The position numbers and the translations under genes were made by a program. Shown here piece by piece: positions 583 through 36,091 of a stretch of DNA of 42,154 bases. The notes beneath the pieces were generated by a model. That model saw only the letters and a list, made by a program, of their open reading frames with translations. It was not told the DNA's origin and made no database searches. The stretch's first letter is position 1. Every line of letters begins with the position of its first letter. The DNA is from a virus. The stretch lies in the IMG/VR virus record IMGVR_UViG_3300031718_000019, positions 1 through 42,154 of that record; one strand, 5' to 3'.

Positions 583-3222
583 ATGGTCACCGGGCCTCAC
601 TGTGAAAATTGCCCTCAGCAACCCTACGGTCAAGCCCTAGTCACCTTCAGCGGTACTAGTACTAGTGGGATAATGTGCATCGGCGAGTCTCCTTGGTACG
701 ATGAGATTGCTGCCGGTGTGCCCTTTGCAGGGGCTGCAGGGTCAGTGTTTGACAGGCTCCTACAGCGTGTAGACCTGGACCGCCGGGATGTGATCGTAAC
801 CAACAGTGCCTGGTGCAAGGCGCCTAGACTGGGCTTCTACGATAGTCGTGACCCTAACGCTGCGATGGCCATGGCTCAGTGCAGGCCCTACCTGGACGCA
901 CTCATTGACCGTATGAAGCCCAAGGTGCTGGTGCCTATGGGTAACGTGGCATTGAGGCGGGTGTGCGGCGTCAGCGGCATCGAGAGTTATGCAGGCTACG
1001 TACTCGATACAGTGTATGGTATCCCCGCAGTACCCACATTCCACCCCAGTTACATTATGCAGGGCAACCAGAAGTTAAGTCCAGTAGTGATCTACGCACT
1101 CGACCGTGCGAAGGAGATTGCACGCCATGGCTTTAAACGCCCTACGCCTACTCTGTATTGCGATCCTTCTGTTAGCGAGCTTACCGCTTATGTTCTTCGC
1201 CATATACGGGATAGTCATGCTATGGGTGGAAATGTTCCGTCTCTATTTATCGACCTGGAGACACCTGAAAGCGCTAACCTTGACGAGGAGGAAGTAGATG
1301 AAAAAGGTACGTCGTGGCAAATTATCAGGGCATCGTTCGCCATTGAAGACGGTGTCGCCGTCAGCTTCCCCTGGACCCCTGTCTTCATTGGTATCCTGCA
1401 AGAACTACTGGACCGAAGTGACGAGACTGTCGAATGGGCAACTAACCATTTCGATACAAGGCGACTGGCTGCCGCCGGGCTGCGGCTACCTAAGCGTTGT
1501 GTTAGCGCCCTGTGGGCCTGGCATTGGCTACAAAGCGATCTCCGTAAAGGTCTCGAATATGTAGCGCCCTTTTTCGGTGCATGCACGCCCTGGAAGCACA
1601 AGAACATTAGTGATCCTGCATTCTACTCCGCAATGGATAGCTTAGAGGGCCGCAGGTGTTACCAAGGTACGATGGCTGCGCTCAAGGCGTATGGACGCTG
1701 GGACAGCTTTGAGAAACATTGCGTGGCCGCAGACCCTATCCTACAGACCATGGGCCGCACTGGCATCCTGATTGACCCCACTGAGCGTGAACATTTTATG
1801 TCTACCCTCAAGTCTGAACACGATGCCGACTTTGCTGAGCTACAAGGTCTCGTGCCAGACTCTGTCAAAAATGTTAAGTACTGGAAACGCCCGCCCAAGG
1901 ATATGACGGGTGTGGTTGAGCTATCGCCCGTACACAGAGGAGATAGCCGTGTCAACGGCCTATCTCCGACCAGAGGAGATGAAGCACCACTCTGGGATAC
2001 GCAGCGTGAAGTAGCCCACGGAGGCACAATGCTTGCTGAGGTGCTTCCCGCTGAGCGTGCTCAAGTGTGGCTAGCTGCTGCCTCGGGTTACCAATACTAC
2101 AAGGTGCTCCCATTCCTACCGTCGTCGTGGGAGCAGGTACAGAAGCTGGCCACGCACTTGAAGGTCAAGCTGCCTAAAAAGCGTGATGCTGAAGACGACG
2201 ATGACGTGTCCACAGAGGACAAGTTTTTGGCGGCGCCATCGCGTAAGCATAGAGAGTTCTATCTAGTGCGTAGCTGCCGTAAGTCATCTAAGCTGCTGAC
2301 CACATACCAATGGCCGCTCAACGAGCATGGCCGCGCCACAACCATATTTGGTTGGGGACCAAGTACCCTACGCAAGGACTCCAGATCGGTTAACCTGATG
2401 AACGTGCCCAAACGGTCTAAGCTGGCCAAGAAGTTTCGCAGGATGATCGTTGCGGCCCCTGGGCACATGCTAGTCGAGGCAGACTACAGCGCTATCGAAG
2501 CTGTACTGGTGGGCTGGTTCGCAGGTAGCCCACGCTACATTAAGCTGGCCAAGGCTGGTGTCCATGGCTGGCTCACTGCAGCTTATCACGGTAAGGTGTA
2601 CTCTATAGATGATCCCGACCTTGCAGCATTGGCGAGCGAATCTAAGCTCGCCTGGCCCGACGACTACGAAAAGTGTAAGCGCATCGTCCACCTCAGCAAC
2701 TATAAAGGTACGCCTATCCGCATCGCTGAAGAGTACCCTGAAGAGTTCCCTACGGTGGCTGCAGCCCGCAAACTCCAGTCATTCTACTTTGAAACTGAGC
2801 CTGGCCAGGACGTTCGTAAGTGGCAAGACACCATCTGCATCCGTGCCGCCCACGACTGCTACCTAGACAACTCCTTCGGCTACCGGCACTGGTTCTACGA
2901 GGTATCGCATTACGATAAACGTAGGGACAAGTTTATCCCTGGCGACGACGCCAAGCGAGCCATCGCATTCCTGCCCCAGTCCACAGCTTCAGCTATTCAA
3001 AGTGAGGTCTTACTGAGGCTGGCTAAGTGTGAGCAAATGAGCAAGTGGCTCAGGCTCATAATCCACGACAGCTTCCTGTGTGAGCCCCCCGAGGCTGACG
3101 CTCTAGCGTGTGCAGCTATGCTGCGCGACGAAATGCTAGCTCCCATACCTGAGTTAGGTGGCCTCACGATAGGAGTTGAGGTCAGCATAGGCCAAAACTG
3201 GGGCGAGATGCACAAAGTTTGA
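583..3222 (+). CDS. Uracil-DNA glycosylase (family 4-like) fused to family A DNA polymerase
   Basis: This 879-residue protein is the only recognisable replicase in the window. Residues 1-185 match family 4 uracil-DNA glycosylases. They have Cys7, Cys10, Cys78 and Cys100 spaced as Fe-S ligands, the GESPWYDEIAAGVPFAG motif from 34, and a late HPSYIM at 154. A 3'-5' exonuclease domain follows with all three expected motifs: Asp224/Glu226 (DLE), NHFD ending at Asp291, and Tyr348...Asp352. The polymerase part has motif A DYSAIE (Asp634), a motif B-like KCKRIVHLSNYKG near 697-709, and motif C HDS at 828-830 with the catalytic Asp829. A charged insertion lies at about 430-560. The start has little ribosome-binding signal, and translation may be coupled to the gene ending at 579. 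Family A identity is clear. The glycosylase assignment is strong from the cysteine and motif pattern, but activity is untested. Confidence 0.93.
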   Translation: MVTGPHCENCPQQPYGQALVTFSGTSTSGIMCIGESPWYDEIAAGVPFAGAAGSVFDRLLQRVDLDRRDVIVTNSAWCKAPRLGFYDSRDPNAAMAMAQCRPYLDALIDRMKPKVLVPMGNVALRRVCGVSGIESYAGYVLDTVYGIPAVPTFHPSYIMQGNQKLSPVVIYALDRAKEIARHGFKRPTPTLYCDPSVSELTAYVLRHIRDSHAMGGNVPSLFIDLETPESANLDEEEVDEKGTSWQIIRASFAIEDGVAVSFPWTPVFIGILQELLDRSDETVEWATNHFDTRRLAAAGLRLPKRCVSALWAWHWLQSDLRKGLEYVAPFFGACTPWKHKNISDPAFYSAMDSLEGRRCYQGTMAALKAYGRWDSFEKHCVAADPILQTMGRTGILIDPTEREHFMSTLKSEHDADFAELQGLVPDSVKNVKYWKRPPKDMTGVVELSPVHRGDSRVNGLSPTRGDEAPLWDTQREVAHGGTMLAEVLPAERAQVWLAAASGYQYYKVLPFLPSSWEQVQKLATHLKVKLPKKRDAEDDDDVSTEDKFLAAPSRKHREFYLVRSCRKSSKLLTTYQWPLNEHGRATTIFGWGPSTLRKDSRSVNLMNVPKRSKLAKKFRRMIVAAPGHMLVEADYSAIEAVLVGWFAGSPRYIKLAKAGVHGWLTAAYHGKVYSIDDPDLAALASESKLAWPDDYEKCKRIVHLSNYKGTPIRIAEEYPEEFPTVAAARKLQSFYFETEPGQDVRKWQDTICIRAAHDCYLDNSFGYRHWFYEVSHYDKRRDKFIPGDDAKRAIAFLPQSTASAIQSEVLLRLAKCEQMSKWLRLIIHDSFLCEPPEADALACAAMLRDEMLAPIPELGGLTIGVEVSIGQNWGEMHKV

Positions 3223-11337: not shown

Positions 11338-11481
11338 TTAGTAACGTCCCTTCCCCTTGTGTGCCTTGCGCCCCTTACCACGCTTGCCGGAGCGCCCACG
11401 GCCCTTGCGCCCTCCAAAGTTCATCTCACTGCCCTTGCCGAATAAGTCACGGTCGGTCTCTTCTAACGACGGCTTAGCCAT
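11338..11481 (-). CDS. Tiny Gly/Arg/Lys-rich protein (47 residues)
   Basis: The ATG at 11481 follows a clear GGAGG (CCAGGAGGCACT). The first 20 residues are acidic to neutral (SLEETDRDLFG). Residues 23-47 contain twelve Arg/Lys and many Gly, with no acidic residue, ending KGKGRY. The size is close to that of known packaged basic peptides such as microvirus protein J, but no homology is claimed. It sits alone between two fibre-region genes. Similar tiny basic proteins occur at 17982, 29890, 30018, 30363 and 33806. A role in binding DNA or RNA is likely from charge alone. Confidence 0.65.
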   Translation of the reverse strand: MAKPSLEETDRDLFGKGSEMNFGGRKGRGRSGKRGKGRKAHKGKGRY

Positions 11482-27153: not shown

Positions 27154-28134
27154 TTAGGCTAAACCGGTTATGGCGCGATTCATCCTTGGTGAGTTGCATC
27201 CGATTTGCCAAGTTAAAAATATTTGCGAAACCACAACCCTTTGGTTGGAAGGACGAATCCATGGATCAACCTTAAAGTAGTCGTTAGCGTTGAAGATTGG
27301 CCAGATATATTTGCTGTTCAGGATGAACGCAGTCTGCGCGGGGCAGAACGGATCGGCGATCACGACGGCATTGTTGTAAATAAAGTGGTAGCGGAAGCCT
27401 GCTTGGAGGGCTTCTTTGTCCTGGACCATCTGGCTGAAGCGCACTAGGGGTGTGAACTGATTCTTGAAGCCTGCGTAACGCGTGTTGTCCATGGCGATGA
27501 TGTCTGGTTCGTCGTAGCCTAGTACGACGCCCTGGTAAGCGGTCTCGGCGTTGGCGGGCGTTAGAGGTGTGCCACCACCGGGGAAGTTGGCCGTCGGGTT
27601 CCAGAATGTGCTGGTTGACCTGTTGATGCCTGCGATAGTGTTGTTGGTGGTCTGTACCCAGGCGACGATGTTGTCTACGTCTATCGCGCTGTTAAAGGGA
27701 GACACGCCCCACAGGGCGTTAGAGAGCATGTCTAGCATGGAGCCAGCGGCTACCTGGAGCATGCTCTTCACGAGGTCCATACCAATCGGGCCGCCGCGCC
27801 CCAGGATGATATCGGTTACTGGGAGTGATAGGTTCTGGTAATATGGACGCCACACTTGATTAGCGGGCTGAATGGGGTCGATGATGGTGGTCTGCAAGAG
27901 CTGGTCGCCCCAGTACGGCCCTCTGGTCGAGAGCACAGTGGTGATCAGGGGGTACACAACTTCAGCACCCCAGTCGAACTTGCGGCCTCGGCGGAAGAGT
28001 GCCCACAGCAATGGGCTGGGTCTGAAGACGACATCTCCAAACTTACCGTCAATGTACTTTGTGGAGATGGCGTCAAGTGTGTTCTGCAGTTGCGCCGTCG
28101 GTTGTTGGACTCCAGTACCTACAACACCAGCCAT
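27154..28134 (-). CDS. Major capsid protein
   Basis: This 326-residue protein has GGAGG seven bases before its ATG. Its features fit an HK97-fold major capsid protein of a podovirus: an N-terminal arm (GVQQPTAQLQNTLDAISTKYIDGKFGDVVFRPSPLLWALF), beta segments around FDWGAEVVYPLITTV, a central helix (GMDLVKSMLQVAAGSMLDMLSNALWG), and a C-terminal region with VVIADPFCPAQTAFILNSKYIWP. It sits immediately after the scaffold-like gene and before a decoration-type gene. The capsid role is inferred from order, size and fold signs. The exact coat family could not be named by eye. Confidence 0.8.
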   Translation of the reverse strand: MAGVVGTGVQQPTAQLQNTLDAISTKYIDGKFGDVVFRPSPLLWALFRRGRKFDWGAEVVYPLITTVLSTRGPYWGDQLLQTTIIDPIQPANQVWRPYYQNLSLPVTDIILGRGGPIGMDLVKSMLQVAAGSMLDMLSNALWGVSPFNSAIDVDNIVAWVQTTNNTIAGINRSTSTFWNPTANFPGGGTPLTPANAETAYQGVVLGYDEPDIIAMDNTRYAGFKNQFTPLVRFSQMVQDKEALQAGFRYHFIYNNAVVIADPFCPAQTAFILNSKYIWPIFNANDYFKVDPWIRPSNQRVVVSQIFLTWQIGCNSPRMNRAITGLA

Positions 28135-28941: not shown

Positions 28942-29385
28942 CTATGCTACCGATGGCGGTGTGCTGGGGCCGCCTCCCGCTTGAGTTGCCGCTGGTGCGC
29001 CCGTGGCGGCGCTGAATCCTAGGGGTGGTCGGACAGCGCCCTCGGTTGACTGGGCTGACTGCAGCTCTTTGAGTGCCTTGTCCAGGGCCTTTACAGTTTG
29101 GCTTAGGTGCCCAGACACGTTAGGCAGGCGCATGCCGCTTTGGACGAATGCAGCCATCAGGGCGGCTTTCACACTTTGTAGGGTGCGCATCAGGAAGGCT
29201 GGGTCGGCGCCGTGGAGTTCGCTTGACATCTGGCTGACCTGACTGCCTGCGTCAGAGGAGCCTTCACCTGGGACACCTCCACCGCCTGGACCACCGGGGC
29301 CACCCGCACCACCACCCGCTCCTGCCGATAATGAAGTGAGGGCTGGGCCGAGCAGGGAGGCCAACGGATTTGACGGACTCGCCAC
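28942..29385 (-). CDS. Gly/Ala-rich hypothetical head-region protein
   Basis: This is a 147-residue protein beginning at a GTG that overlaps the previous stop (TAGTG). It has a Gly/Pro-rich low-complexity stretch at about 20-45, a helical middle (LMRTLQSVKAALMAAFVQSGMRL and HLSQTVKALDKALKELQSAQ) and a low-complexity Ala/Thr/Pro tail. No family is recognised. Its place between the portal-side genes and the scaffold suggests a capsid-assembly role, but the sequence alone does not show one. Confidence 0.55.
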   Translation of the reverse strand: MASPSNPLASLLGPALTSLSAGAGGGAGGPGGPGGGGVPGEGSSDAGSQVSQMSSELHGADPAFLMRTLQSVKAALMAAFVQSGMRLPNVSGHLSQTVKALDKALKELQSAQSTEGAVRPPLGFSAATGAPAATQAGGGPSTPPSVA

Positions 29386-29627
29386 TATCGTTTCTTACCC
29401 TTTTTGCCCATCTCTAGGTGCGCTACAAAGTTGTTCGGGTCAGGCGGTTCGCCGCCGGTGTCCCAGGGGTCGATCAGATCGAGCACGTCGGGGCCGGGTT
29501 CAGCTGCGGCCTTCATGACGTTTAGAGGCGTGTTGAAGTCGGGGAAGTCTACGTTCTCGCGCACGCCTTCTCTGTCGTCGCTCGCTGGATCGTAACGCTT
29601 GGCTGCGGGACCGGATTTCTGTGCCAT
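29385..29627 (-). CDS. Hypothetical protein with basic C-terminus (80 residues)
   Basis: The ATG has AAGGAG nine bases upstream. The protein has a polar first half (DPASDDREGVRENVDFPDFN), an acidic middle (DVLDLIDPWDTGGEPPDPNN) and a short basic end (GKKGKKR) that recalls the tiny basic proteins elsewhere in this operon. There is no membrane or signal segment and no recognised family. It lies within a run of small genes between portal and scaffold. Confidence 0.55.
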   Translation of the reverse strand: MAQKSGPAAKRYDPASDDREGVRENVDFPDFNTPLNVMKAAAEPGPDVLDLIDPWDTGGEPPDPNNFVAHLEMGKKGKKR

Positions 29628-29629
29628 GG

Positions 29630-29827
29630 CTATTTCTCCTTACCCTTGCTGGATTTAGCTGAGTCGCCTGCTGGAGCGTAATTCATGGGATCGGCGGGCA
29701 TCACAGTGTTAATGTCGTCGTCTACCATCGGCGTGTCGGTTTCGTAGGGGTAGCTGTCGTGGTCGTTTACGGGTGACCACAGTGTTGGAGTGCGTTTAAT
29801 GCCTCGGTTATCGTATCGCGTTGTCAC
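29630..29827 (-). CDS. Small acidic hypothetical protein (65 residues)
   Basis: The start is a GTG with GGAG five bases before it, and no ATG is available. The product is acidic in the centre (TDTPMVDDDINTVMPADP), rich in Pro/Asp/Tyr, and ends in a short basic stretch (SSKGKEK). It is probably disordered. No motif is recognised. It sits between the tiny basic proteins and the other small head-region genes. Confidence 0.5.
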   Translation of the reverse strand: MTTRYDNRGIKRTPTLWSPVNDHDSYPYETDTPMVDDDINTVMPADPMNYAPAGDSAKSSKGKEK

Positions 29828-29889
29828 GCTGGCTCCTTGAGACTACGGGGAGAGCCGCAGCCCTCCCCCCTGAGTTTGCTTAGGTGCTG

Positions 29890-29946
29890 CTATTTCCGCT
29901 TTCCCTTACGACCACGGTGTCTCCGATCAACGAAGGTCACGCGCAT
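29890..29946 (-). CDS. Tiny basic peptide (18 residues)
   Basis: An ATG at 29946 follows GGAG (GGAGACCAAA) and opens an 18-residue frame ending at TAG. Nine of the 18 residues are Arg or Lys, with RGRKGKRK at the end. An in-frame ATG at 29994 would give 34 residues but has no ribosome-binding site. The strong site, the charge pattern and two like neighbours within 500 bases make this likely to be expressed, though such a short frame can occur by chance. Confidence 0.5.
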   Translation of the reverse strand: MRVTFVDRRHRGRKGKRK

Positions 29947-30017
29947 TTTGGTCTCCTTTTCTCCATGCTCACCCCTGGAAGGGGAGACCCGCATGGGGGG
30001 TACTACGAGTAAAATTG

Positions 30018-30107
30018 TTAGCGGCGTCTGCCACCCTTGCGGCCACCTTTACGGCCACCCTTGCCACCGCCCTTGAAGATTGATCCGCCTGTCAGTACGT
30101 TTGACAT
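30018..30107 (-). CDS. Tiny Gly/Lys/Arg repeat protein (29 residues)
   Basis: The ATG at 30107 has GGAG six bases upstream. The 29-residue product begins SNVLTGGSIF, then repeats a KGG-type unit (GGKGGRKGGRKGG) and ends in RRR. It has nine Arg/Lys, eleven Gly and no acidic residue. It lies one base after the gene ending at 30109, so it is packed into the operon. The repeat could bind nucleic acid through charge and flexibility. This is one of six tiny basic frames found in the late operon. Confidence 0.6.
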   Translation of the reverse strand: MSNVLTGGSIFKGGGKGGRKGGRKGGRRR

Positions 30108-30108
30108 G

Positions 30109-30348
30109 TCACACTCCAAATACTACGAGGGATGCAGCTGCGTCCGATGCACTACACGCAAAAGTCAATGTGCCCCCGGAGATCGTGGCTCCCAGCGTAG
30201 CTTGAGCCGATGAGTCCAGGGAGAAAGAGTCGATCATGCCGAAACCGGTTGCGAGGGTGTTCGTGTTGGCCACGCTAATGTTGGCACAGTACATGCGCCG
30301 GTTACCGCTGTAGCAGTACACATAACTGTTAACAGTTGCAGCTGCCAT
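30109..30348 (-). CDS. Hypothetical small beta-rich head-region protein
   Basis: This 79-residue protein has a strong AGGAGGAGGGC before its ATG. It is Ala/Ser/Thr-rich with several short strands (TVNSYVYCYSGNRRMYCANISV, QATLGATISGGTLTFACSAS) and three Cys. It shows no signal, membrane or enzyme motif. The size and composition would suit a small capsid decoration or head-stabilising protein, but no family is recognised. It sits between the two shortest basic frames. Confidence 0.55.
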   Translation of the reverse strand: MAAATVNSYVYCYSGNRRMYCANISVANTNTLATGFGMIDSFSLDSSAQATLGATISGGTLTFACSASDAAASLVVFGV

Positions 30349-30362
30349 GTGCCCTCCTCCTG

Positions 30363-30440
30363 CTAACGACTGCGACGCACGTAATTACGCATGCTAGGAC
30401 GCCTAAGAGTGTGGCGGCGATTTCTGCGCCCGCGTGCCAC
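30363..30440 (-). CDS. Tiny Arg-rich protein (25 residues)
   Basis: A GTG at 30440, immediately after the TAA of the upstream gene, opens 25 codons to a TAG at 30363. Eleven of the 25 residues are Arg, with one His and no acidic residue (VARGRRNRRHTLRRPSMRNY, ending RRSR). The upstream GGCGGA is a weak ribosome-binding site, and start/stop adjacency may allow reinitiation. A shorter in-frame ATG gives nine residues. The Arg density is far above that of its neighbours and resembles packaged basic peptides such as microvirus J, without claimed homology. Confidence 0.5.
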   Translation of the reverse strand: MARGRRNRRHTLRRPSMRNYVRRSR

Positions 30441-30752
30441 TTAATTGATCCGCCATTCTGGGTGAGCAAGCCATGATTGCCAAGCGCTGATAGCGGAACG
30501 CTCCACATATTCCCAGAATGATTCGCTGCCGAACTTATAGCGTGCGTCTTCTTGGATACTTTTGTGGATCAACAGTGGAACGTGGGTGCCATCGACAACG
30601 TATTCGGCGTCCCAATATTCTCCACGGTCGTGCCAGCTTATACGTGAAATGTCGTGGCCGTTTAACATTACGCTGTAAGGGTGGGGGGTGCCTGAGGGGA
30701 TTACAAGGAGGGCTGGGCCGTATGCTCCGTACTGGGCATGCCGATTAACCAT
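30441..30752 (-). CDS. Hypothetical protein (103 residues)
   Basis: This is a soluble protein with no signal or membrane segment. It has a beta-rich first half (GPALLVIPSGTPHPYSVMLNG, DISRISWHDRGEYWDAEYVVDGTHVPLLI) and a helical end rich in Trp (SFWEYVERSAISAWQSWLAHPEW). The chosen ATG overlaps the upstream HTH gene by about 50 bases. An internal ATG at 30668 would avoid that overlap, but neither has a good ribosome-binding site. No family is recognised. Confidence 0.5.
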   Translation of the reverse strand: MVNRHAQYGAYGPALLVIPSGTPHPYSVMLNGHDISRISWHDRGEYWDAEYVVDGTHVPLLIHKSIQEDARYKFGSESFWEYVERSAISAWQSWLAHPEWRIN

Positions 30753-30931
30753 TGCTTACCACGGCTCTTAGGGCCACGGTAGATAGCGCAGCCTGCGTCT
30801 ACCAGGGTGCCGTCTACACACCACTTGCGGACGGTGCGTGGAGCTATGCCGTAGAACTCAGCGGCCTCAATTGTGTCGTACCAGTTGTATTGAGGGTGAG
30901 TGCGTTTGAAGTGTTCACGGGTGGTTGGCAT
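30701..30931 (-). CDS. Small helix-turn-helix DNA-binding protein
   Basis: This 76-residue protein starts in a TAATG overlap with the portal stop. Residues 18-50 form a winged-helix/excisionase-type HTH (YDTIEAAEFYGIAPRTVRKW...DGTL) followed by a wing-like stretch (AIYRGPKSRGKQWLIG). This is the MerR/Xis-like helix-turn-helix group. It would bind DNA, perhaps regulating its own operon. It is unusual to find such a gene inside the structural block. Confidence 0.7.
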   Translation of the reverse strand: MPTTREHFKRTHPQYNWYDTIEAAEFYGIAPRTVRKWCVDGTLVDAGCAIYRGPKSRGKQWLIGMPSTEHTAQPSL

Positions 30932-32619
30932 TATCGGGGCCTCTTGAGTTTGCTGAGGGCGGCTAGCTGGAGTTCTTCTCGCTGAGCGGAAGCCACTTCG
31001 GCGGCGTCCGGGAAGTCAAGTGCCTCAAGGGCATATTGTAATGGAAGGTGGCCTTCCTTCAATAGACCCATCACGAGTGAGCGCATGGCGGCTGCTGACA
31101 TGGGCCTTATGGATGTGTGGTCTAAGTAAACGTCGTAGTCTTCGATGGGGCCTAGTTCGGGCCACGCCGTCAGTTTTACGTCGCCACTATCTTGGCTGAC
31201 AAATTGTGTGCCCTGTTTCAAGTTGCGCATGGTCCAGAACACCAGTTCGGCGGTGCGCTGGACGCTCTCGGCCATCATACGAGCACGCATGCGGGTCAGG
31301 AATTGTGATTGGAATATCGACGCGTCGTTCAGGTCGGCGCCTACGTTGCCGGGGGCCTGTTGGCCCGCTCTGGCTGGAGTGAATCCTTGTAGCTCTTTCT
31401 GCAACGTGAGTAACTGTTGGGGCGCTTGGGTCATGTGGGCGGGCATGGCTTGGGGATATTTACATTCGGGCACAGGACTGTTGGCGTTGATGATGCATAC
31501 TTGGGCGGGGATGCCGCCAAACTCTTCGGCACGCAGGCCGGTGCGTTCGTCTATGAACCAGATCATGTTGTTGGTGCGGACGGCGTTCTCGAAGTTCTGG
31601 GTCAGGTGGCGTTCGGCTAGCTCCTGTAGACCCTTTGTGTAGCGTACGGGCGGTGGGCACCAGAAGCTGCCCAGGGTAGGCATGGCGTGGTAGGGGATGA
31701 TTGGCCAGCTGCGGAATGGATAAGGGTTGTCGCCGTCGGCCAGAACGATGCCGTCGCACTCTACGATCCAGCGTCCGTTGGGCCATCGCAGCTTGCGTTG
31801 GGGGGCGGGGATCAGTGCTCCTAATTGGGACTGGATTCGTTCAACGTCTTCCTTGGGGATGTCCATGGCGGTGTAGTCGCGGATGTACAGGTGTCTTACG
31901 GTAAGGCGCCCGTCGCCACTAGGCTTTATTGTGGGTATGCCACCGCTGATGCTCATGGGCCCGTCGGGTAACTTTAAGCCAATGTCGAAGCCGTCGGGGG
32001 GTGCAGACGCTCGCCCTAGTACGTTGCGTGGATGGACTCGGTAACCGTTCTCGGGCCACAGGCGTTGGATTTCGTCAATGTACATGCGGTCTTTGAGGAT
32101 GACGTAGACCCACTGTTCGGGGTCCGCTGATCCAGGGTCGGGGAACACTGTGCTGGGGTCGCGGACTTCCATCCACACTTCGCCCTGGCCGCGCTTGGCC
32201 TCGGGGTCGAAGCCTACTTGGATAAAGCCGGTGCCACAATAGAGGCCCCACAGTTCGGCCAGGAATATTTTGTTGTTGAAGTACTGCTGACGCCAGTGCT
32301 CGGTGAAGCCGTCTTCGGCGGCACGGTCGCGCTTGCCGTCTTTCATGATGAATATTTTGGGCTGCTGATCGCTGAGGTCGGTGGCTTCGTTCAGCATCAG
32401 GGTTTGGAGCTGCGGCACCACTACCCTAGGTCTAAAGGTGGGGGATGCGGGGAACCTACCTGTCAAACTGTGAAAGTCGCGGACCTCTTGGAACCAGTCA
32501 TCGCCGAGGGTGTTGTCACGTTCGTCTTGACTCAGCCGTTCCAACTCATCCATTTGTCTGGTGATAGTTAAGTCAGGGCTCTCTTGAGCTGATTCTCTTT
32601 TTATATTGGTGATAGGCAT
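30931..32619 (-). CDS. Portal protein
   Basis: This 562-residue protein carries features of podovirus portals: FTEHWRQQYFNNKIFLAELWGLYCGTGFIQVGFDPEAKRGQGEVWMEVRDPSTVFPDPGSADPEQW, where the G-T-G-F-x-x-V/G-F-D motif and the D-P-S-x-V-F-P-D motif are the usual portal signature, then AGQQAPG and a helical C-terminus with conserved Trp/Arg. It forms the ring through which DNA enters and leaves the head. It is encoded downstream of the terminase and upstream of the scaffold and capsid, the expected order. The gene is separated from its upstream neighbours only by an inserted LAGLIDADG gene. Confidence 0.85.
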   Translation of the reverse strand: MPITNIKRESAQESPDLTITRQMDELERLSQDERDNTLGDDWFQEVRDFHSLTGRFPASPTFRPRVVVPQLQTLMLNEATDLSDQQPKIFIMKDGKRDRAAEDGFTEHWRQQYFNNKIFLAELWGLYCGTGFIQVGFDPEAKRGQGEVWMEVRDPSTVFPDPGSADPEQWVYVILKDRMYIDEIQRLWPENGYRVHPRNVLGRASAPPDGFDIGLKLPDGPMSISGGIPTIKPSGDGRLTVRHLYIRDYTAMDIPKEDVERIQSQLGALIPAPQRKLRWPNGRWIVECDGIVLADGDNPYPFRSWPIIPYHAMPTLGSFWCPPPVRYTKGLQELAERHLTQNFENAVRTNNMIWFIDERTGLRAEEFGGIPAQVCIINANSPVPECKYPQAMPAHMTQAPQQLLTLQKELQGFTPARAGQQAPGNVGADLNDASIFQSQFLTRMRARMMAESVQRTAELVFWTMRNLKQGTQFVSQDSGDVKLTAWPELGPIEDYDVYLDHTSIRPMSAAAMRSLVMGLLKEGHLPLQYALEALDFPDAAEVASAQREELQLAALSKLKRPR

Positions 32620-33576: not shown

Positions 33577-33806
33577 TCGGCGGCCTCTGGATTAATTATC
33601 ATCATCTCTGCAAACTGACTGCCTGCCCTGAGCACTAGCTCACCGCTGCCGGGATCGTAGTCTGTGTAGAGTATGGCCCTCTCGTTCAGGGCGTCGATAT
33701 CGCTGCATTTGACGCGCAGTTCGCCACCTTCCCTGCGGGCCAACGCGAGCAAGATGCGGGTGTAGTACGATAAGGGGTCTTGTTTGCCTCGTGTGTGGCT
33801 GGGCAT
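33420..33806 (-). CDS. Hypothetical protein, terminase-adjacent
   Basis: This is a 128-residue protein whose ATG overlaps the upstream TAA (TAATG). It is helical with alternating charge (LSYYTRILLALARREGGELRVKC, IDALNERAILYTDYDPGSGELVL). The last third is basic (GLLRRANQRRQSMNTPRPP). No family is recognised. Close to the large terminase, it could be a small packaging protein, but it has no visible helix-turn-helix. It shares 157 bases with the 33160 gene in another frame. Confidence 0.5.
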   Translation of the reverse strand: MPSHTRGKQDPLSYYTRILLALARREGGELRVKCSDIDALNERAILYTDYDPGSGELVLRAGSQFAEMMIINPEAAEWIRPERIQEQAAKVSKMAVPTDSDLAEIEAGLLRRANQRRQSMNTPRPPTS

Positions 33807-33979
33807 TAGCGCCTACCCCGGCCCCTGTGTCTACCATATTTAGCATCGGACTGTTCAGACCTCAGCCTAGATACCTTGGCGCCACGCTTTTCACTGACGC
33901 CCTGGGATGGGATGAAGCCGCCGGTGGGTTCGCCATGCATGTGGCGGCCTTTCATACGGCCTTTTGTGCTGCGTGCCAT
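33806..33979 (-). CDS. Tiny basic protein (57 residues)
   Basis: The ATG at 33979 follows GAGGG eight bases upstream, just after the terminase stop. Of 57 residues, 11 are Arg and 5 Lys, concentrated at both ends (ARSTKGRMKGRH and GRHRGRGRR). The centre is more mixed (GEPTGGFIPSQGVSEKRG). It overlaps the next start by TAATG. Size, charge and packing mirror the other tiny basic proteins of this operon. A longer in-frame start upstream is inside the terminase gene and is not used. Confidence 0.6.
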   Translation of the reverse strand: MARSTKGRMKGRHMHGEPTGGFIPSQGVSEKRGAKVSRLRSEQSDAKYGRHRGRGRR

Positions 33980-33980
33980 G

Positions 33981-35723
33981 TTAGATACCCTCCAGTCCAT
34001 GTCCTAGTATCGGCTTACTGCTACCTTTTGACGATGACATAACCTTTTTGAAGTGGCGCTGCAGGCTGAACTCCAGGTCGTCTTGCCACTTTGGGAGCTT
34101 TTCGCGCAGCTGTTCGTCTTCGGAGCCCATCACGAAGGGGTCGCGCCACACACGCTTGCCGAGTACCTTGGGGGGCGGGTTCTGTACGTACGCGATGGCT
34201 GCGAGCATAGCTGACATTAAGATGTCGTCGTGGCCGTACTCGACTTCCCACCTGCCGCTCTCGACTAGGGTAGCCTGATCAAGTTGTTCGAGGCAGGCTT
34301 CGTCGCGGACTGTCAAGGTGGGGAACTCTTCGCCGCGCATGCGCCCTCGGATGCAGGTACGGAAGTTATCGAACAGTTTGCGCCGCGAGTATGTGGTGGT
34401 TTCCCAGCCGATCAGTGTGGAAGGCTTGCGGCCCCACTTGTCGTCCTTGCCCTTCCACAGGGCGAAGTTGGGGTACATAAGCTGGTCGCGCAGGATGCGG
34501 ATGGTCTCGCGGCCACTGTTACCGGTGAGTTCGACGTTGAGCATGGCCTTGTTGTACCAGCGGCCCGCCACGTTGAGGTACTGGGCTAGGATGTCTGGGG
34601 TGATGCGTTCACTGTAGCGAGCTACGATTGCGCCCACTGTGCCGTCAATGACCGTGAATGCTGCGAAGTCGCCCTCTTCTACGCCTACGGCTGCGTCGGC
34701 GCCTATGTAGTATGTGTGGCCAGTTTTAGGCTCTTCCCACAGTAACATGGAGCCCTGGGTGGTCTTTTCAAAGCGGGGGTGGTCGGCGTCCCAGTGTAGG
34801 TGGCCTTTGGCGACTGGGGTGACTACGCACTGGCGCACGAACTTTACTTCGTCAGATGGGAATGCTGGGTCACCTGATGCAACGAACGCGATTTCCGGTG
34901 TCCAAGGGAACTCTTGCATGAAGCGGGGCAGCATGCCTTGACATTTATTTTCTAGAGTGTAGCGCATCCAAGCGATCTGCGCTTTGTTGGCATTGAATGG
35001 TGTAGCCATCAGCTCGCGCTCTAAGTCGTTGGCAGGTGCGTCTTCTGCATCCTCTGGATCACCTACGCAGATTGGATCATCTAGGAATCCGATGAACACT
35101 GGCACGTAGCCGTTGTGGCCTGCGACTGCGGATTTCCAGAACTCGTAGAACACTTTACCTGGGCCTACTCTGCCGAAGGCGGTGGATTCGATGACGACCA
35201 TCGTATCAGGACCTTCGCTGACGGCTGGCAATAGTGACAGGAAGCTTCCCTCACCAGGGAATTGGCTGGCTTCACTTAGGTGTAAAGCAGACAGTGTTAA
35301 TCCGCGCCCACCGCCTAATGAGCCTGCGGTGGCGATGTCCAAGATGCTGTCGCCGCCTTTGTGCTTAACGACAATGTGTTTGGTGAAGATGTCGCCCACT
35401 TTTACGGGGAGTGCCTTAGCGAGATCGCGGGGGACTCTGAATAAACCTTCAGCGGTGTCGTTCAGGTGCGCTACGATTTTTGCGTGGGCCTGTTCGCGGG
35501 CCAGGCAGTGTAGCAGCAGCAGAGCGTCTACTTCACTTGATATGCCCACGCGGCGTGACTTCAACACGATGGCACGGACTCGGTCAGTTTCTGCGTACTG
35601 CGCTGTGATCTTATCGGTAAATATCTGCTGCGATGGACGTAACTTAAAAGGTACAGTGCGGCCAGTCTGGATGTCCTTGATAGGCAGCTTTTCAAGAAGG
35701 TCTACGGAGCGTTGGATGTTCAC
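33981..35723 (-). CDS. terL: Terminase large subunit
   Basis: The GTG at 35723 makes a GTGA overlap with the upstream stop. An in-frame start 23 codons earlier is inside that gene. The 580-residue ATPase/nuclease packages DNA into the head. The Walker A region is KSRRVGIS (Lys55 before the loop, as in lambda GpA-like terminases, not the usual GKS/T). Walker B is the LHLSEA at 147-152 and the coupling motif is VVIESTAFG. The nuclease has Asp343 (GADAAVG), Glu398 (LNVELTG) and Asp499/Asp500 (YGHDDIL). All three catalytic acids are present. This is the most secure structural gene of the window. Confidence 0.95.
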   Translation of the reverse strand: MNIQRSVDLLEKLPIKDIQTGRTVPFKLRPSQQIFTDKITAQYAETDRVRAIVLKSRRVGISSEVDALLLLHCLAREQAHAKIVAHLNDTAEGLFRVPRDLAKALPVKVGDIFTKHIVVKHKGGDSILDIATAGSLGGGRGLTLSALHLSEASQFPGEGSFLSLLPAVSEGPDTMVVIESTAFGRVGPGKVFYEFWKSAVAGHNGYVPVFIGFLDDPICVGDPEDAEDAPANDLERELMATPFNANKAQIAWMRYTLENKCQGMLPRFMQEFPWTPEIAFVASGDPAFPSDEVKFVRQCVVTPVAKGHLHWDADHPRFEKTTQGSMLLWEEPKTGHTYYIGADAAVGVEEGDFAAFTVIDGTVGAIVARYSERITPDILAQYLNVAGRWYNKAMLNVELTGNSGRETIRILRDQLMYPNFALWKGKDDKWGRKPSTLIGWETTTYSRRKLFDNFRTCIRGRMRGEEFPTLTVRDEACLEQLDQATLVESGRWEVEYGHDDILMSAMLAAIAYVQNPPPKVLGKRVWRDPFVMGSEDEQLREKLPKWQDDLEFSLQRHFKKVMSSSKGSSKPILGHGLEGI

Positions 35724-36091
35724 CGGGTGCGCTCCCTTCCGTTTGGACTTACTGACCTGAACATGCCACCCATGGCCGCTTTCATGTGACACCCTTGGCT
35801 GCAGATAGATTCGCGCTCCACCACGCCAGTTTTAACGTTCATGCGGGCCTGCGTGTACACTGGGCTATAAATATTGCGCCCGTGCTCAACGCGGGTGGGC
35901 AGCTCGTGGTGGCACACGATGCAGTACTCTTTCTTCTGCTGGGAGTTGCGCTGGCTGTATATGCGTGTACCGGCGTCGGCACTGGCTCTGACTTCGGCGA
36001 GCAGCTTTTCGTAGTTGGTTAGCGACAAACTGTTCCAGTCGGTCTCGGTGGGGACGTTAAATTGATTGACAGCCAGGCTAGACTTCGGCAT
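35720..36091 (-). CDS. Cys-containing protein upstream of terminase
   Basis: This is a 123-residue protein with AGGGAGGG before the ATG. Its middle and end hold a Cys/His set (CIVCHHE around residue 57 and CSQGCHMK near 100) that could bind one zinc. Before it is a helix (SLTNYEKLLAEVRASADAGTR). No small-terminase HTH is obvious, yet the position directly before terL, with a four-base overlap, makes a packaging role or a small-terminase function possible. This is inference from position. Confidence 0.5.
   Translation of the reverse strand: MPKSSLAVNQFNVPTETDWNSLSLTNYEKLLAEVRASADAGTRIYSQRNSQQKKEYCIVCHHELPTRVEHGRNIYSPVYTQARMNVKTGVVERESICSQGCHMKAAMGGMFRSVSPNGRERTR

Follow-up and report, generated by a model that had tools for sequence, protein, structure and literature searches.

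Minute arginine- and lysine-rich genes between the portal and scaffold genes of two tailed-phage clades

Do three minute, strongly basic reading frames in the head-gene block of an uncultured virus encode peptides and, if so, what could such peptides do? The stretch of DNA analysed here, referred to as the window, is a record of an uncultured virus that comprises 42,154 bases. The original prediction placed three arginine- and lysine-rich frames between a portal and a scaffold gene of the window, and its account of their coordinates, lengths, basic residue counts and single acidic residue (Asp7 of the 18-aa peptide) is borne out in full (Table 1). The ordinary gene that it noted between the frames is the 79-aa ORF, read from 30348 to 30109, the two good ribosome-binding sites belong to the 18-aa and 29-aa frames, and the flanking genes are as named, the portal by a family match and the scaffold by its position only.

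Table 1. Features of the head-gene block of the window
Feature	Position	Strand	Details
Major capsid protein	27154-28134	-	HK97 fold; PHROG 9953, E 1e-21; anchor of the comparisons
Putative scaffold, 259 aa	28154-28933	-	Assigned by position only, directly before the capsid gene; gene order same in all relatives
80-aa protein	29385-29627	-	Basic C-terminal tail ..GKKGKKR
65-aa protein	29630-29827	-	Basic C-terminal tail ..KGKEK
Hairpin directly behind the 18-aa gene	29846-29872	-	34-nt fold; -18.7 kcal/mol here, -18.5 in a relative
18-aa peptide MRVTFVDRRHRGRKGKRK	29890-29946	-	ATG; AAGGAG 6 nt upstream; 9 K/R; 'class C'
29-aa Gly/Lys/Arg peptide MSNVLTGGSIFKGGGKGGRKGGRKGGRRR	30018-30107	-	ATG; GGAG 6 nt upstream; 9 K/R; 'class B' position
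79-aa ordinary gene between the peptide genes	30109-30348	-	pS 0.54, pN 0.095 against a ~14%-diverged relative
25-aa Arg-rich peptide MARGRRNRRHTLRRPSMRNYVRRSR	30363-30440	-	GTG start; 11 K/R; 'class A' position
103-aa gene	30441-30752	-	Stop immediately precedes the 25-aa peptide gene; pN/pS ~0.27 against a ~14%-diverged relative
Portal	30931-32619	-	PHROG 156, E 2e-15; basic C-terminus LKRPR
Large terminase	33981-35792		PHROG match

Three basic frames in a head-gene block

The 25-aa frame lacks a strong Shine-Dalgarno (SD) sequence and is probably translationally coupled to the 103-aa gene, because its GTG directly follows the TAA of that gene. The most useful comparison within the region is with a relative that is about 14% diverged there (contig 3300020579_000029; L003/L005), since two further loci (L001, L002) are identical to the window here and hence uninformative. 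Against this relative the 29-aa frame carries six synonymous and no nonsynonymous changes, and the other two frames over the same gene contain stops and show nonsynonymous changes only. The 25-aa frame has four synonymous and two nonsynonymous changes, the latter both in one codon, and its GTG start is ATG in the relative. A 59-aa frame with a membrane-segment-like stretch, which overlaps the 25-aa gene, was ruled out by two synonymous versus ten nonsynonymous changes over its length. The 18-aa frame shows no substitution in 57 nt and by itself gives no synonymous evidence. Comparison with relatives was the check put forward with the original prediction, and it could have failed; start, frame and basic character proved to be conserved, with change biased towards synonymous sites.

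The stretch without substitutions extends beyond the 18-aa gene and spans about 100 nt (29846-29946), including the hairpin behind it; because of this length, the segment may additionally be constrained as nucleic acid.

The surrounding genes are those of a tailed phage. An AlphaFold model of the capsid protein (pLDDT 76) retrieved HK97-fold shells in Foldseek with a best E of 5.6e-10; it was built with 51 sequences, a first model having been poor (pLDDT 50), and is usable for the fold only. For the 79-aa ORF, searches of PHROG and Pfam gave no match. A further small gene (33806-33979, minus strand), immediately following the large terminase gene, encodes a 57-aa basic protein, MARSTKGRMKGRHMHG..GRHRGRGRR, which is conserved in L005. 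Some relatives (L008, L010, L021 and others) carry additional ORFs of 105-180 aa between scaffold and capsid, possibly homing-endonuclease-like insertions.

Peptide genes in two phage clades

All relatives used are metagenomic. The first clade comprises 84 capsid-anchored loci whose capsids are 45-65% identical to that of the window, several of them near-identical, so that the counts given here are not all independent. A strict filter (11-50 codons, an SD sequence, at least 40% Lys plus Arg and no more than two Asp or Glu) recovered 116 coding-strand ORFs of 11-37 aa between portal and scaffold in 74 of the 84 loci, the corresponding counts being one for the reverse strand, 2.3 for Markov-shuffled sequence and three for the 383 kb examined downstream of the capsid. 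In the window itself the 18-aa frame is the sole match on both strands; this 'class C' peptide is nearly universal, 9-24 aa long with a C-terminus that is usually -R-K, and has a counterpart in the same place in most of the 84 relatives. Among the ten loci that failed the strict filter, seven are positive under relaxed limits and two have a 47-62-aa protein with a similar basic tail; in L106 a peptide ORF is seemingly absent under both sets of limits. Every clade 1 gene map made by hand has at least one such ORF between portal and scaffold, and the portal-capsid interval accounts for 11 of the 13 forward-strand strict matches in nine large genomes. A 34-aa basic ORF with AAGGAGG, MHRMSRHKGMRMGGRKSYAKQRIVKRAPRRRGRR, was seen behind the capsid gene in G011 (at about 48893 in the oriented sequence) and in L046-L048.

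It is important to point out that the strict filter was chosen after a first set of peptides had been viewed; three checks that do not depend on it were therefore made, namely a composition-blind count, the survey of a second clade and scans of DNA patterns. The composition-blind count of ATG ORFs with a strong SD sequence and a length of 9-30 aa gave 120 on the forward strand versus seven on the reverse, and 99 of the 120 contain at least 40% Lys plus Arg.

The capsid of the second clade is only about 18% identical to that of the window, and its genes are arranged in the order terminase, a protein of ~160 aa, portal, micro-ORF(s), a Pro/Gly-rich protein, a protein of ~70 aa, a scaffold-like protein and capsid. 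Peptide ORFs are present in 62 of the 63 loci with sufficient upstream DNA, 105 in total, with one on the reverse strand, 1.5 in shuffled sequence and none in 226 kb downstream. They are often paired (e.g. MRKAHKKSRKSRR with MARKARKGRKSRK), and the shortest has nine codons (MRRSRRHKR). Behind the 11-aa peptide of L138 two more small ORFs with a GGGGR-ARR motif were noticed (positions 2981-3140; MATPARPPQRGGGGRVARRHQRR and MCEVLPAGKRGGGGRYARRKQRRTVTP), and small ORFs resembling them occur in L208, L209 and L216.

The first DNA pattern combined an SD sequence with M-A-(R-like)-(R-like)...K-(R-like)-K-stop and placed no constraint on the frame in between. It found 50 stretches in 2.9 million viral contigs; 48 of the 49 checked are in frame without a stop, at 11-16 aa, and 39 are linked, in the expected order, to genes related to the terminase, portal, scaffold or capsid of the window. 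The same pattern matched bacterial and archaeal genomes (257 Gb) only three times, each time out of frame. A second pattern (..R-K-x-R-K-stop) yielded at least 37 in-frame basic matches among 80 loci examined, at least 34 of which are linked to clade 2 head genes; repeat-bearing peptides such as MRKGRKGRKGRK also occur in this set.

Taken together, peptide genes of 9-45 codons, mostly 10-20, lie between portal and scaffold in two clades of HK97-fold tailed phages. They do not form one conserved sequence. The shared position makes it likely that the peptides of the two clades are homologous; at ten residues sequence cannot show homology, which is unproven both among the classes and between the clades.

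Searches outside these clades returned little. As the original prediction held for standard gene sets, none of ten representative peptides matches a PHROG or Pfam family, the best weak match having an E of 0.16, with peptides below 20 aa too short to be judged. The window portal had no match in 50,697 phage records, and the capsid matched only distant Mx8-, BUCT555- and ppBjS10J-1-like phages, whose portal-capsid intervals contain no such peptides. Directly after the portal of Stenotrophomonas phage BUCT555 (L027, 6543-6701) there is a 52-aa basic protein that matches PHROG 16759 and also the first 50 residues of two head-and-packaging virion families, PHROGs 22033 and 25121; it represents, in a distant cultured phage, a basic head protein of greater length in the same place. 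Roseobacter phage CRP-7 and Hydrogenobaculum phage 1 (terminase only) provided no lead, and neither did a Limnohabitans phage. Cellular genomes contained no relative of the capsid and only out-of-frame pattern matches, and no tRNA clue to the host was found.

No published report of such peptides was found in the literature searched, which lay mostly outside subscription journals. Conserved genes as short as 9-20 codons are below what ordinary gene finders accept, and a component that is nearly universal in these phages has thus been overlooked. The GenBank genomes MW202753 and MW202825 each have two unannotated 13-aa ORFs at this place, where opposite-strand ORFs are annotated instead. The annotated hypotheticals UOF81572, UOF81573 and UOF82412 lie over the tiny ORFs (L184:2741-3039 and L185:3184-3444) and are probably false gene calls.

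Selection and composition

For an estimate of selection, independent pairs of loci were picked by capsid divergence alone (4-30%) and the ORFs were projected by DNA alignment. Over these syntenic pairs pN/pS is 0.33; 20 projected ORFs are intact, three are interrupted, 20 carry indels that keep the frame and seven carry indels that break it, several of the latter altering the C-terminus only, and 28 projections were excluded for poor alignment. This supersedes an estimate from 31 pairs (ratio 0.35) that had been picked by peptide identity and was biased. Third-position changes among identical peptides are synonymous by construction and show only that different DNA encodes identical peptides. 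Charge is kept while the sequence drifts, as in MARRRGRHSKRK and MARRKGRHGRRK, which differ at 14 nt.

Substitution patterns such as these show purifying selection on frame, length class and basic composition, and strongly support the view that the frames are real, translated and selected genes. ORFs that arise by chance in purine-rich intergenic sequence could be as short as these and equally missing from all annotation; strand, frame, start and synonymous bias all oppose such an origin, and it is contradicted outright by the 48 of 49 in-frame pattern matches and by the pN/pS, which leaves it highly improbable.

The peptides have a median length of 17 aa and consist of 34% Arg, 21% Lys, 12% Gly and 6% His. 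With 60% Lys, Arg or His, 3% Asp or Glu and 6% Ile, Leu, Val, Phe, Trp, Tyr or Met, there is little in them that could fold or enter a membrane. Their C-terminal -R-K is near-invariant (penultimate Arg in 97 of 105, final Lys in 79 of 105), which hints at something more specific than charge.

Does translation of the tiny frames matter rather than the product? In leader peptides, translation and the hairpins that follow would regulate the scaffold and capsid genes and the peptide would be discarded. The arrangement of tiny SD-led ORFs followed by stable hairpins fits, in that 50% of peptide genes versus 27% of other gaps have a hairpin more stable than shuffled sequence by 4 kcal/mol or more; this enrichment is modest, however, and hairpins also occur elsewhere. 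Arg and Lys are encoded by common codons (AAG, CGC, CGT) with free synonymous change, and each phage has one to four copies, whose distance from the following gene varies. Such free codon choice and multiplication of copies make regulation in this manner improbable.

Possible roles of the peptides

A free-drifting sequence with its charge kept, a location in the head block only and a composition with nothing to fold suit a polyelectrolyte role on nucleic acid or an acidic surface while heads are assembled and filled. Together with the near absence of hydrophobic residues they also favour, as an inference, the original prediction's suggestion of packaged peptides that neutralise DNA or line the head. 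The reading that we favour, at even odds, is that the peptides have a DNA-binding role in the virion or in packaging. A bolder version is that two clades of tailed dsDNA phages organise their packaged genome with virus-encoded, protamine-like micro-peptides, each translated separately; we put its probability at roughly 0.35. According to the favoured reading, the peptides would be made late, alongside the head proteins (a timing suggested by gene order), and would enter the procapsid either free or held by head proteins. There they would act as polycations on the packaged DNA or between DNA and shell, and would ease packing and stabilise the filled head. The basic C-termini of the portal and of neighbouring head-block proteins might have the same effect while remaining part of their proteins. 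Bulk charge neutralisation is unlikely, since at +9 each, and with a few hundred copies at most, the peptides would balance only a few percent of the phosphates in genomes of 35-58 kb, for instance of 50 kb (a figure from arithmetic, not measurement); a local or capsid-bound role is equally good.

The conserved C-terminus and the basic tails shared with other head proteins leave room for a specific docking role. All eight portals examined have at least three Lys or Arg in their final six residues, and a basic C-terminus is found in 13 of 37 head-block proteins versus 49 of 585 elsewhere (p 1.5e-5, from rough gene calls). Together with the -R-K ending, the constant placement within the portal-scaffold interval and the N-terminal extension of some class C members (e.g. 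MFGFGEVKNRR), these tails would fit peptides that act as short linear motifs, dock into acidic grooves on the shell, portal or scaffold and serve head assembly, while binding DNA secondarily or not at all. Yet the free drift of the sequences speaks against a tight protein interface, many members consist solely of Lys, Arg, His, Ala, Gly and Ser, and the strong acidity sought in the scaffolds was not seen (48 D/E vs 16% K/R in 259 aa), so that a role confined to protein binding appears rather unlikely.

Could the products instead be directed at the host? Short Arg-rich motifs can bind RNA, and peptides of this kind might act like antiterminators or bind ribosome or polymerase, with their location in the head block being incidental. 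Phage takeover genes are usually early and situated away from head genes; the peptide genes, by contrast, are in strict synteny with head genes, and no folded domain accompanies the basic stretch. Such host-directed or RNA-binding effectors are quite unlikely.

A DNA-binding role of the peptides, as favoured above, would have functional precedents of different origin. Baculovirus P6.9 is longer than the present peptides, regulated by phosphorylation, from a eukaryotic virus and without homology to them. P6.9 is a small, basic, protamine-like protein that condenses the DNA of a dsDNA virus (PMC5899202). The J protein of phiX174 and other microviruses is a DNA-binding protein that guides the genome within the shell (PMC13386984). 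Like J, the present peptides are very short, strongly basic and encoded among structural genes; unlike them, J belongs to ssDNA phages with a T=1 jelly-roll capsid, whereas here there are an HK97-fold capsid, a portal and a large terminase with terminase-driven packaging, and the peptides are sometimes half the length of J or less and come from one to four different genes. Ten representatives showed no demonstrable homology with either J or the DNA-binding peptide families of PHROG, members below 20 aa being too short to be scanned. Adenovirus X/mu is a tiny, highly arginine-rich late peptide that condenses the genome of a dsDNA virus (PMC7998265); it resembles the present peptides in its arginine content, its length of about 20 residues and its dsDNA genome. 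However, mu belongs to a eukaryotic virus, whose protease releases it from a longer precursor, whereas each peptide here has its own start, SD sequence and stop. The T4 internal proteins IPI, IPII and IPIII are basic, bind DNA and are present at about 300 copies each in the head, with an exact role that has long been unclear (PMC9026906). They share the basic composition of the present peptides, which may likewise be packaged, but measure 8-20 kDa rather than about 1-5 kDa and carry cleaved N-terminal capsid-targeting sequences; no such propeptide was recognised here, and many members, at 9-13 aa and all basic, have no room for one. By analogy, the peptides may work like microvirus J or adenovirus mu and be of different origin, not homologous to either; if they do bind DNA, they would be a new variant among small basic viral DNA-binding peptides.

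If found in the virion, the peptides would be the tailed-phage counterpart of J and mu, and a simple system for the effects of basic peptides on tightly packed DNA, a question that is open for the T4 internal proteins. A genome organised by micro-peptides would depart from the customary view that the DNA inside tailed-phage heads is essentially naked, and micro-peptide genes of 9-20 codons would be among the shortest conserved genes known. For metagenomes, the succession of portal, SD-led Arg/Lys micro-ORF and scaffold offers a sequence mark. Outside the head block of the window, a small ORF for 47 aa (11338-11481, minus strand) also has a basic tail, ending in RGKGRKAHKGKGRY.
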